Shown piece by piece: positions 22,420-27,112 of a stretch of 64,000 nucleotides of DNA (within the stretch, counting starts at the first letter, position 1; the number at the start of each line of letters is the position of its first letter). The notes beneath the pieces were generated by a model. It was not told the origin of the DNA. It did not search any database and worked only from the letters and a program-made list of their open reading frames with translations. The stretch spans positions 186,001 through 250,000 of the forward strand of contig NZ_AP018341.1 in NCBI RefSeq assembly GCF_003574135.1. Direction: 5' to 3'. The stretch comes from a cyanobacterium endosymbiont of Rhopalodia gibberula (lineage in GTDB: Bacteria > Cyanobacteriota > Cyanobacteriia > Cyanobacteriales > Microcystaceae). The translations under genes were made by a program, and so were the position numbers.

Positions 22420-22672
22420 TTTATGTAAGGTTATGTACGACTTTTTCATTGGTGATGTGTTGATTTGATTGGTTATTGAGTTTTGAACTTAGGATGAGCA
22501 GTAATATTATCAAAATCTGCTTCACTTAAAAATGAACAACTCATTTTCCTAAAACTTTCACAAGTTGTTTTTTTGCATTCTGATATTCAAATTTGATACC
22601 GATTATAAATTTCGCTTCACTGGTCTGGTTTTAAGTCACCATAGAAAATAAAGAATCATAATCTAATGCAAG

Positions 22673-24397
22673 ATGTTACAACACGATGTTGTTATTGTTG
22701 GCGGCGGGTTAGCTGGATGTCGTGCCGCCCTAGAAATTAAAAACCTCATCCCCACAGTTGATGTAGCTGTTGTGTCCAAAACTCATCCTATTCGATCACA
22801 CTCCATAGCGGCTCAAGGAGGGATTGCTGCCAGTTTAAAAAATGTTGATCCTAAAGACAGTTGGCAGTCTCATGCCTTTGATACCGTCAAAGGTTCAGAC
22901 TACCTAGCCTATCAAGACGCAGTTATCTTATTGACCAAAGAAGCTCCTGATGTAATTATCGATTTAGAACATTTGGGAGTACTATTTTCTCGTTTAGAAA
23001 ATGGCAAAATTTCTCAACGAGCTTTTGGTGGTCATACCTACAATCGCACTTGTTACGCTGCCGATAATGGCTATGCCATTCTCCACGAATTAGTTAATAA
23101 CCTCCATCGTAATGATGTTACTATTTATGATGAATGGTATGTGATGCAATTGATTCTTGAAGAAGGGGATGCGAAAGGGATCATCATGTATCGCATCGAA
23201 GATGGCAAACTTTAAATTGTCCAAAGTAAAGTAATCATGTTTGCTACAGGGGGTTATGGACGAGTATTCAATACAACCTCTAATGATTATGCGTCTACGG
23301 GGGACAGGTTAGCTATGTCTGCGATGGCGGGTATCCCCTTAGAAGATATGGAATTTGTTCAGTTTCACCCTACCGGATTGTATCCCGTTGGGGTTTTGAT
23401 TTCCGAGGCGGTAAAAGGAGAGGGAGGCTATCTCATCAACAGCGAAGGAAGGCGGTTTATGGAAGATTATGCCCGCTCTGATCTGGAATTGGCTCCCCGT
23501 GATATTACTTCTCGTGCTATTAACTGTGAAATTCTGGCAGGACGAGGAGTCTATCCTGATGGCAATCCGGGTGGACCTTGTATTTATTTGGACTTGCGTC
23601 ATATGGGAAAGGAAATGATCATGAGTCGAGTTCCATTTTGTTGGGAAGAAGCATACCGACTTGTGGGAGTAGACGCAGTCCATGAACCCATACCGGTCCG
23701 TCCCACTGCTCATTATTGCATGGGAGGAATCCCCGTAAATACTCAAGGCCGTGTACGCCTGAGTGAAACCAAATTAACAGAAGGGCTCTTTGCGGCTGGA
23801 GAATGTGCTTGTGTCTCAGTTCATGGGGCAAACCGTTTAGGTAGTAATTCCTTATTAGAATCTGTTGTTTATGGACGCATCACAGGTAGAAATATTGCTG
23901 AATATGTCCAAGGTCGCAAGTTTTCTGAGATTAAGTCCCACGCTTATTTAGACACAGTAGAAAACCGAATCCAGACTCTTTTAAATAAAAAAGGAACTAT
24001 TAGGTTAGGAGTATTACAGAAGCAATTTTAAGATTGTATGAGTGAATATTGTGGAGTGTTTCGTAACGAAAAGAAAATGAAAGAGGGATTAACAAAAATT
24101 CAGCAATTTAAACAACAGTATAAGCAAGTTTATCTTGATAACAAGGATTATTTTTGGAATACGGAATTAATTGAGGCGATGGAGTTACAAAATATCATGA
24201 CGGTAGGAGAAATTATTCTCACTTCTGCTTTAAGTCGTCAAGAAAGTCGAGGTGCGTATTCACGAGAGGACTATACTCAAAGAGATGATGTCAATTTCTT
24301 CAAACATACTTTAGCCTATTATTCTTCTGCAAAAATTGATATTCAACATATTCTTGTGGTCATTAATATGTTCGAATTTAAGGAAAGAAAGTATTGA
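22673..24397 (+). pseudogene. sdhA: succinate dehydrogenase flavoprotein subunit, two in-frame stops
   Basis: The gene spans 575 codons, the normal length of cyanobacterial SdhA, in a single frame, but TAA occurs at 23213-23215 (after MYRIEDGKL) and at 24029-24031 (after GVLQKQF). All else reads through: FAD motif [17 protein letters not shown], the FAD-linking His in SHSIAAQGG, the active-site segment DMEFVQFHPTGL, the arginine in PVRPTAHYCMGGIP, and GANRLGSNSLLESVVYG. The downstream start codons would give only headless fragments. CAA (Gln) fits both stop positions, so each probably arose by a C-to-T change. The inactivation seems recent. Loss would break the TCA cycle and succinate entry into the respiratory chain unless another copy exists. 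Confidence 0.92.
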
Positions 24398-24521: not shown

Positions 24522-25715
24522 TTAGTCAATCTCTGTAACTCGCCAACTTAATTTAAGATTAAACCAAAAATTCCAAAGAGTCACCAGGATAATCGCTAGT
24601 AAGTTTGCTATATATTTATTATAGTTAAAAATCCTAACAAACATATTCAAAAAAAATACATTGAGAACTAATCCTGCTAAACAAATTAAATTAAATTTAA
24701 TTAAGCGTTTTAATCTTTGTCTTTTTTCTGGTTGTCGGCGGGAAATATCTCCAAATGTCCAACAATCATTCCAGAGAAAATTATTAATAACAGCCAACTC
24801 AGCCGCAATAATTTTACTGCGTGTTAAAGGCAATTCTGGTCCGATTTTATCACTTAATAAGTAAAGAAATCCCATATCAACAACAACACCAGTCAATCCG
24901 ACTAAACTAAACTTAATAAATCGGGCTGAAATTGATAAGCGTAATCCCAATAAATGCTGAATATATTCTATATATTGTTTCCAAGTGACCTTACTCTCTC
25001 CATCCTGACGTTCTCGAAACACATAACCTACCTCAGCAATCCAACTAATACAACCTCTTGCAGCCACTTCAATAAGAATTTTGTATCCTACTGGACTCAA
25101 AGTCTTACAGGCTATAGCATTACGGCGCACCATAAAATAGCCGCTCATGGGGTCAGAAAGGCGACTAATAACTTCTGGGAGAATTATCAATCCTAATATT
25201 TGCGCCCCACGGGAGAGAACGCGACGTAAAATACTCCATTCACTAACACCTCCTCCTTCAACATGACGACTAGCAACAGCTAAATCAGCCCCTCTTTCCA
25301 TTTCTTCCAATAGTTTTTCTAACACTTCTGGGGGATGCTGTAAGTCTGCATCAATGACACCTAAAATTTCTCCTTGCGCCACTTGCCACCCCCGGATAAC
25401 CGCTGTTGATAAACCCTTTTCCTCAACACGGCGCATCACGTGCAGTTGGGGATAGTTAGAGGTTAATTCTAGAGCTAATTTCCAAGTATAATCAGGACTG
25501 TTATCATCAACAATGATTATTTCATAACGTTCTGGAATATATTGATCTAGCAACTGACTTAAAATTTCAATGATATCCTTAATATTCCCAGCTTCGTTAT
25601 AAGTTGGGAGAATGAGAGATAATTTAGGAAGACAATCGCAAGCAATTTCTCTAGTTGTACAAAAGTAAGGGATTTTCAAAGTCCCAGAGGGAGTAGAGAG
25701 AAGGGATTGATTCAT
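24522..25715 (-). CDS. GT2 glycosyltransferase (DPM1-like) fused to a GtrA-like membrane domain
   Basis: A membrane-anchored polyprenyl-phosphate sugar transferase. Residues about 30-270 form a family-2 glycosyltransferase: LSLILPTYNEAGNIKDII, the DDNSPD nucleotide-binding motif, GVIDADLQHPPE (the DxD-like site) and the DPMSGYFMVRR motif typical of dolichyl-phosphate mannose synthases. Residues about 275-397 form a GtrA-like four-helix membrane domain (FIKFSLVGLTGVVVDMGFLY). This fusion is common in bacteria and makes lipid-linked mannose or glucose. ATG 25715 gives a full catalytic domain. It survives beside a dead flippase gene, so the pathway it served may be partly lost (inference). Confidence 0.9.
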   Translation of the reverse strand: MNQSLLSTPSGTLKIPYFCTTREIACDCLPKLSLILPTYNEAGNIKDIIEILSQLLDQYIPERYEIIIVDDNSPDYTWKLALELTSNYPQLHVMRRVEEKGLSTAVIRGWQVAQGEILGVIDADLQHPPEVLEKLLEEMERGADLAVASRHVEGGGVSEWSILRRVLSRGAQILGLIILPEVISRLSDPMSGYFMVRRNAIACKTLSPVGYKILIEVAARGCISWIAEVGYVFRERQDGESKVTWKQYIEYIQHLLGLRLSISARFIKFSLVGLTGVVVDMGFLYLLSDKIGPELPLTRSKIIAAELAVINNFLWNDCWTFGDISRRQPEKRQRLKRLIKFNLICLAGLVLNVFFLNMFVRIFNYNKYIANLLAIILVTLWNFWFNLKLSWRVTEID

Positions 25716-26053: not shown

Positions 26054-27112
26054 ATGTCATCTGAATAAAAAACTCGCGGTTTAGAGTGCGATTTTGACAA
26101 TAGCGGGCTACGGGGGAAGTTAAGCCTTACGTCTTGATGGCAATATCATCCTGACTTGTCTACTGGTTCCAGAGTTATTTGGTTTGATGGCATTGATTAA
26201 TACCTTTGTTTAAAGTATTAACCTATTCTAGGATTTAGGTATTAAAACTAGTATTATTTGCGGTTTAAGGGTAAAAAAAAATCTAGTTTTTCTTAGCACA
26301 GCTTGTACTGTACAAGTCGTTCATAGTTTTGTCTTATAATTAAGTCATTGCTTAATAGACTAGCCTATCGTCCAATTTTATGATAGTTTTCAAGTCTTAT
26401 GGCTAATGCGGATCGTTGGTTGAACTACCATTATTAATGGAGCTAACTTTATTTCTTTAGCTACTCTTCTCAATCGTAAGATGGAATTATGTATCTTAAA
26501 CAGATTTGAGTTTGTGGTTCAGTTTTCAGCAATAGCTACGAGAGTTACCTGTGCTTATTTTCAAGGAACGATTTGGGCTTTAGTTGGTGAAGGTTTATTT
26601 AGTAAAATATTCAAATTAACCGGAAGTTATCTCTTAAAACTAAATTTACTCAGGCATTTTGTTTTTTTAAAAAAGTCGATTAAAGAATTAGTTTTTTTTG
26701 TCGTTGGATCTTCATTTATGCGGCAATATTTTTGTTGGATAGCCAAGTTGATAAACTCCTTTTATGAAAATTATTGTCTTTAGAGATTTTAAATATTTAT
26801 ATAGTTGCTTTTTTACTTGCTAACTTACCTAAGTAAGTAGTAGAAAGAATAAGTCATTAGGTAATTTTCTCCTTGATGGTTCATAACAATGAAATTTCCA
26901 AGCACCGGCAGCAGTTTTATCGGTTGTGCTTGCCCTCTATTAGATTAGATAATAAGCTAAGTGCTATATTTAACCCGGTTTTTACAGCAATTTATGGAGA
27001 GATTATCGATCTAATTATACAAGCGCCACGAACAAAACTACAACAAAAATTAATCTCAGTTCTACCAAACTCATTATGTAAAACCGAGACTTTAAGAGGA
27101 GGAAATAAGTAA
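26054..27112 (+). pseudogene. decayed Wzx-type polysaccharide flippase (MATE/PST family)
   Basis: Starts at ATG 26054 (MSSE, TAA, KTRGLE), then shifts frame and reads SAILTIAGYGGS, stop at 26121, ALRLDGNIILTCLLVPELFG, LMALINTFV, stop, SINLF, stop, DLGIKTSII. In the same frame it continues FLSTACTVQVVHSFVL, RKMELCILNRFEFVVQ, YFQGTIWALVGEGLFSKIFK and KSIKELVFF. After another shift FLLDSQVDKLLL, TGA, KLLSLEI and IVAFLLANLPK follow, and the end is NEISKHRQQFYRLCLPSI. The order matches oligosaccharide flippases of the Wzx/PST type (LLxPELFGLMAL, LNTAWTVQV, FLANQxDRLILGKLLS). At least six stops and two frameshifts make it dead. The C-terminal quarter is not readable. Confidence 0.85.

Follow-up and report, generated by a model that had tools for sequence, protein, structure and literature searches.

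The DNA analyzed here (the window) is a stretch of 64,000 nucleotides, bases 186001-250000 of a single 3,020,309-base contig, from the spheroid body or diazoplast of Rhopalodia gibberula (genome G000). It carries what appears to be a gene for the flavoprotein of succinate dehydrogenase (SDH), sdhA, interrupted by two stop codons in a frame that is otherwise open. The locus therefore raises the question of whether a working SDH is still made in this endosymbiont and, if it is not, when and why the enzyme was given up. For comparison we used three further spheroid bodies, namely G003 (2,794,318 bases), taken as that of E. turgida, and G001 (3,072,807 bases) and G004 (2,483,960 bases), taken as further rhopalodiacean endosymbionts whose hosts are perhaps E. 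clementina and E. pelagica. The free-living relatives were Rippkaea orientalis PCC 8801 (G006, one contig of 4,679,413 bases) and a 5.2 Mb relative taken as free-living (G002); two genomes of 1.4-1.5 Mb (G013 and G021) were taken as UCYN-A.

The frame opens with an ATG at 22673 and closes with a TGA at 24395-24397, giving 574 codons plus the terminal stop, not the 575 codons of an earlier note on this DNA, and it contains exactly two internal TAA codons (Table 1). The claim of that note that a full-length sdhA is interrupted here holds: the best match of all three open pieces is NF004613 (cyanobacterial SdhA, PRK05945), at consecutive model positions and with scores of 345.1, 505.5 and 188 bits. 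As the three pieces lie in register on the model, this is not a chance frame. No single piece reaches the family cut-off of 824 bits, while the three together span the whole model; membership of the family presupposes an uninterrupted frame, which the two in-frame TAA codons break. Alignment with the SdhA of relatives covered 29 loci from 28 genomes (G005 twice), G000 and G004 having been dropped from the 31 loci entered because neither has a frame of >400 aa. Both stop columns are sense codons in all 29 loci, showing that the lesions are absent from functional relatives. Both stops had been placed at probable glutamine codons, which is correct for stop 2 (Gln in 29/29) but not for stop 1, where the relatives have mostly Glu (25/29; Asp 2, Val 1, Ala 1). 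Likewise, the absence of frameshifts from sdhA was read correctly, but a deletion had been overlooked, as one codon, reference Lys132, is missing relative to the relatives. Among 308 invariant SdhA columns, 21 are altered in G000, counting the deleted codon and one stop. A search of the whole G000 genome found no second sdhA; the sole other SdhA-like match, at C1:2184821, is a paralogue with 37-38% identity that we take, from its length and this identity, to be NadB.

Table 1. Position of sdhA, its lesions and the remnants of its partner genes (window positions; C1, contig positions).
Feature	Position	Strand	Basis
Pseudogene of sdhA for the succinate dehydrogenase flavoprotein, from the ATG through the terminal TGA	22673..24397	+	ORF reading, NF004613 match and alignment
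Conserved block directly 5' of the sdhA start, bounds approximate	22629..22672	+	alignment with free-living relatives
Open piece 1, 180 codons, NF004613 model positions 1-181	22673..23212	+	profile match
In-frame 3-nt deletion relative to G002, G006, G001, G003 and G004, site approximate	23067..23068	+	alignment
Stop 1, in-frame TAA, codon 181 (reference codon 182)	23213..23215	+	reading frame and alignment
Open piece 2, 271 codons, model positions 183-453	23216..24028	+	profile match
Stop 2, in-frame TAA, codon 453 (reference codon 454)	24029..24031	+	reading frame and alignment
Open piece 3, 121 codons, model positions 455-575	24032..24394	+	profile match
sdhB remnant, two stops and a 1-nt deletion	C1:718922-719604	minus	
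sdhE/HdrB remnant, three stops, an insertion of 1 nt and deletions of 1 and 4 nt	~C1:919.8-920.7 kb	minus	

According to PMC11014987, the SDH of cyanobacteria consists of SdhA, SdhB and HdrB (SdhE) and lacks SdhC and SdhD. A functional complex II would need these partners intact, and in G000 the genes for SdhB (compared over all but about its last 50 nt, which fall outside the compared slices) and SdhE/HdrB both carry stops and frameshifts. We use the name SdhE because the G004 protein, which is intact, scores best among NCBIfam models against the 8-methylmenaquinol:fumarate reductase anchor SdhE (225.9 bits, under the cut-off of 500). G002 and G006 also have a GlcF-sized CCG-domain protein of ~450 aa; all four spheroid bodies lack a match to it, and matches there are confined to the SdhE-type gene or what remains of it. 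Judged from its genes, G000 has lost the capacity to make a working succinate dehydrogenase, since SdhA, SdhB and SdhE/HdrB are all broken, and this strengthens the proposal already made from sdhA that succinate has been lost as an electron donor. The open TCA cycle proposed with it is in line with the partial cycle in print for these endosymbionts (PMC12903740, PMC11070190).

None of the four spheroid bodies has an intact sdhA or sdhB. The sdhA lesions are a single stop at reference codon 64 in G004, five internal stops and three 1-nt deletions in G001, and four stops, an 895-nt deletion and several frameshifts in G003; no sdhA lesion is shared in the alignment between any two of the four genomes. 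Stop 1 of G000 is absent from G001, G003, G004 and the free-living relatives, and stop 2 from G001, G004 and the free-living relatives, its site being deleted in G003. In sdhB, G001 has one stop, G003 has seven stops and indels, and G004 lacks one nucleotide of a G run, at a position that coincides with a deletion in G003. The sdhE gene is intact in G004 and carries three stops and a 1-nt deletion in G001 and three stops and four insertions in G003, again with no lesion shared among the endosymbionts in the alignment. The loss in G004 is either the most recent or, with just one lesion in sdhA and one in sdhB, the most open to sequence error.

In a broader search the middle SdhA piece was matched in 52 of 59 genomes, G000 included (E <= 1e-60); for the other seven genomes the search was repeated with the read-through SdhA protein. 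This returned nothing in G013 and G021, the sdhA remnants of G003, only a NadB-like match in G050, and distant SdhA-like frames together with a NadB-like one in G042, G046 and G053. The misses outside the endosymbionts indicate that SDH of this type is not universal in this order.

The history of constraint was followed with a branch-specific codon model on the tree (((G000,G003),G001),G004) with G002 and G006. Bootstrap support for the two inner endosymbiont splits is weak: 87 and 77 in the tree of the control genes and 56 and 97 in that of the SDH genes. The SDH set was the concatenation of sdhA, sdhB and sdhE (1174 codons); fumC, prfA and nadB served as controls (1288 codons, of which the 454 of nadB are not the whole gene in every genome). 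On the shared endosymbiont branches omega was 0.101 for SDH (about 0.064-0.145) and 0.106 for the controls. On the terminal branches SDH and control values were 0.288 (about 0.18-0.50) and 0.079 in G000, 0.357 and 0.098 in G001, 0.653 and 0.130 in G003, and 0.096 and 0.080 on the long branch of G004. Constraining the terminal to equal the shared value cost a 2dlnL of 17.7, 26.1, 67.0 and 0.04 for SDH in G000, G001, G003 and G004, and of 1.1, 0.07, 0.69 and 1.6 for the controls. Thus, SDH constraint was normal on the shared branches and was relaxed later on three of the four terminal branches, including that of G000, which shows the relaxed selection expected of a pseudogene (0.288 against 0.101). 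The G000 value remains at 0.27-0.28 under two alternative groupings of G000, G001 and G003, and is 0.215 (control 0.059) when G003 is left out. The per-subunit values in G000 (0.276, 0.236 and 0.308 in the sdhA, sdhB and sdhE set) agree roughly, in keeping with the complex having been given up as a whole. A value of 2.376 for sdhA alone on the shared branches rests on near-zero branches and was left out.

These estimates also bear on timing. For sdhA, omega in G000 is well below 1 (2dlnL 18.4 against omega = 1), so constraint must have lasted over much of this branch. Assuming a change in omega from ~0.09 to 1, the unconstrained share of the G000 terminal branch is ~0.22 (0.10-0.45); the loss had been called very recent, which is too strong given that the raised omega of the three genes leaves ~10-45% of the branch unconstrained. 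Over the three genes 7 nonsense changes are observed in G000 against 4.8 expected (2.3-9.9), and the expected and observed numbers are 6.1 and 9 in G001, 16.3 and 14 in G003, and 0.6 and 1 in G004. The sdhA frame is nearly perfect because only a handful of nonsense changes are expected over the inferred unconstrained time. SDH was probably abandoned lineage by lineage and, in G000, during about the final fifth of its terminal branch, making the loss recent but not brand new.

A different history would have SDH silenced once in the common ancestor, for example at a promoter, with the coding genes then decaying separately in each host lineage. The breakage of sdhA and sdhB in all four genomes would fit this, and a match to Dri1 (DUF2470) is lacking from all four (see below), so that a related change may be common to them; the 1-nt deletion that G003 and G004 have at one position in an sdhB G run is the one candidate for a single ancestral lesion, sdhA and sdhE having yielded none. 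That deletion, however, falls in a homopolymer and does not fit the tree. In addition, G004 retains an unbroken sdhE, the shared-branch omega matches that of the controls, and the long G004 terminal branch still stands at 0.096. We consider a single ancestral silencing improbable.

Taken together, these results make it highly probable that sdhA is the decaying pseudogene of a complex II flavoprotein, that the whole complex is broken, and that constraint was lost later, lineage by lineage. The metabolic setting suggests why. In published accounts the TCA cycle of rhopalodiacean endosymbionts is partial, and weight is placed on the oxidative pentose phosphate route (PMC12903740, PMC11070190); three core TCA proteins are counted as missing from all rhopalodian endosymbionts (PMC12903740, Table 1), and many TCA genes as missing from those of E. 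clementina, E. turgida and R. gibberula (PMC11070190). In a heterotrophic, host-fed and N2-fixing endosymbiont, the respiratory chain would be fed mainly through NDH-1, by NAD(P)H that the oxidative pentose phosphate route supplies, and this entry is the likely cause of succinate oxidation becoming dispensable. The frames for fumC, malic enzyme, the NadB-like protein and an NdhB-type NDH-1 subunit have no stops in any of the four endosymbionts, so fumarate can reach malate and pyruvate, while succinate is not oxidizable by SDH. Fumarase and malic enzyme may thus still carry fumarate by way of malate to pyruvate, whereas succinate would be an end product that leaves the cell or is used in small amounts. 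For the alpha subunit of succinyl-CoA synthetase, one match below the cut-off was found in each of the four endosymbionts and in both free-living relatives.

The function of SDH might instead have been replaced, by an enzyme imported from the host or by a second quinone-linked enzyme. Import of host proteins is known for UCYN-A (PMC12903740), which lends this some plausibility; yet G000 has no SdhA-like gene besides the NadB-like one, and its own SdhB and anchor are broken, which makes replacement very improbable.

The earlier note had also allowed that the stops might somehow be tolerated. Working flavoprotein could still be made if they were read through or if the three pieces reassociated, and in favor of this the frame is open except for the stops, with ATG codons shortly 3' of both (ORFs begin at 23237 and 24038). 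The anticodons UUA, CUA and UCA are, however, absent from all 39 typed tRNA matches of G000 (150 of 234 first-look candidates were scored, a search that an intron-split tRNA would escape); prfA scores above its family cut-off, and a further open frame that resembles a release-factor gene is taken as prfB. Recoding and a suppressor tRNA were rejected on these grounds. The relatives lack the stops, and omega is raised in all three genes. As sdhB and SdhE/HdrB have lesions of their own and no tRNA match reads a stop, sdhA is a pseudogene rather than a gene with tolerated stops, and continued production of the flavoprotein is scarcely credible. Equally remote is a sequencing or assembly error in a functional gene: single-base calls are all that separates the stops from sense codons, but two bad calls do not explain the excess of nonsynonymous change over three genes, the sdhB and sdhE lesions are independent of the sdhA stops, the TCA cycle is incomplete in published accounts of this group (PMC12903740, PMC11070190), and, although a single stop might be an assembly error, error as the sole cause of seven stops and several indels at three separate loci is unlikely.

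In Synechocystis, Dri1 (DUF2470) is a heme-dependent repressor of SDH (PMC11014987). Among seven genomes searched, one Dri1 match was found in each of G002 and G006 and none in G000, G001, G003, G004 or G013. Within 80 kb around the malic enzyme gene in each of the four endosymbionts, the place examined as the dri1 site, nothing matched any gene of the G002 dri1 region. Given that SDH was constrained on the shared branches, the Dri1 brake may have gone before the enzyme. A more speculative extension, which we regard as rather unlikely as a whole, is that diatom endosymbionts repeatedly discarded complex II, with all its subunits and in one lineage after another, following a shared, earlier loss of Dri1, that an unregulated SDH was kept for a while but lost its use or even became harmful when NDH-1 came to be fed from host sugar by way of NADPH, and that succinate is released to the host. 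By eye, dri1 of G002 lies near ORFs resembling dihydroorotate dehydrogenase and phosphofructokinase. Phosphofructokinase and a copy of dihydroorotate dehydrogenase are reported as lost in these endosymbionts (PMC12903740).

An incomplete TCA cycle is already known in these endosymbionts, that of R. gibberula being named, and the published accounts, which concern the same group of organisms, record missing TCA genes (PMC12903740, PMC11070190); the passages of them compared here mention neither SDH lesions nor the timing or independence of the loss. Among the literature matches listed, no text was found that names these SDH lesions, their independence or their timing. What is added here is the complex-wide, parallel loss of SDH, together with a Dri1 that is unmatched in all four genomes. 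By kind the R. gibberula sdhA is an ordinary pseudogene; the pattern of parallel, complex-wide loss is of more interest. In an earlier comparison of the R. gibberula and E. turgida spheroid bodies, pseudogenization was reported to be slower in R. gibberula (PMC5638926), and the SDH omegas fall in the same order (0.288 against 0.653). The B12 genes were described there as showing no dysfunction in R. gibberula; SDH, by contrast, is broken in both. The genomes taken by size as UCYN-A, the nitroplast, G013 and G021, likewise have no SdhA or SdhB match, and the CCG-domain (SdhE-type) match is absent from G013, the sole UCYN-A-type genome searched for it. Unlike the spheroid bodies with their decaying genes, these two genomes contain no matched remnant, and fumC and malic enzyme are also unmatched in both. 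The subunit set described in Synechocystis (SdhA, SdhB and HdrB; PMC11014987) is the one still recognizable here as remnants; in contrast to that cyanobacterium with its SDH and Dri1, all three subunits are broken in the R. gibberula spheroid body and Dri1 is unmatched.

Diatom endosymbionts are models for how a nitrogen-fixing organelle begins, and four genomes in which one respiratory complex has decayed to different degrees allow the order in which metabolic modules are lost to be worked out. The pattern also raises the question of why a cell that must respire hard to feed and protect its nitrogenase can do without succinate oxidation. The reading favored here, lineage-by-lineage loss of the whole complex, predicts that succinate is an end product and that NAD(P)H is the main entry to the respiratory chain.

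Some minor observations concern the surroundings of the gene. The block directly upstream of sdhA (~22629-22672) is kept in free-living and endosymbiont genomes. Near the start codon, a TATAAT-like hexamer, a putative promoter element, is present in G002 and G001 and differs by one base in G000 and G003, and also in G006. Downstream, an intact glycosyltransferase-like ORF at 24522-25715 is adjoined by a gene remnant at 26067-26908, which matches a 451-aa ORF of G002 in two frames with 47% and 35% identity.
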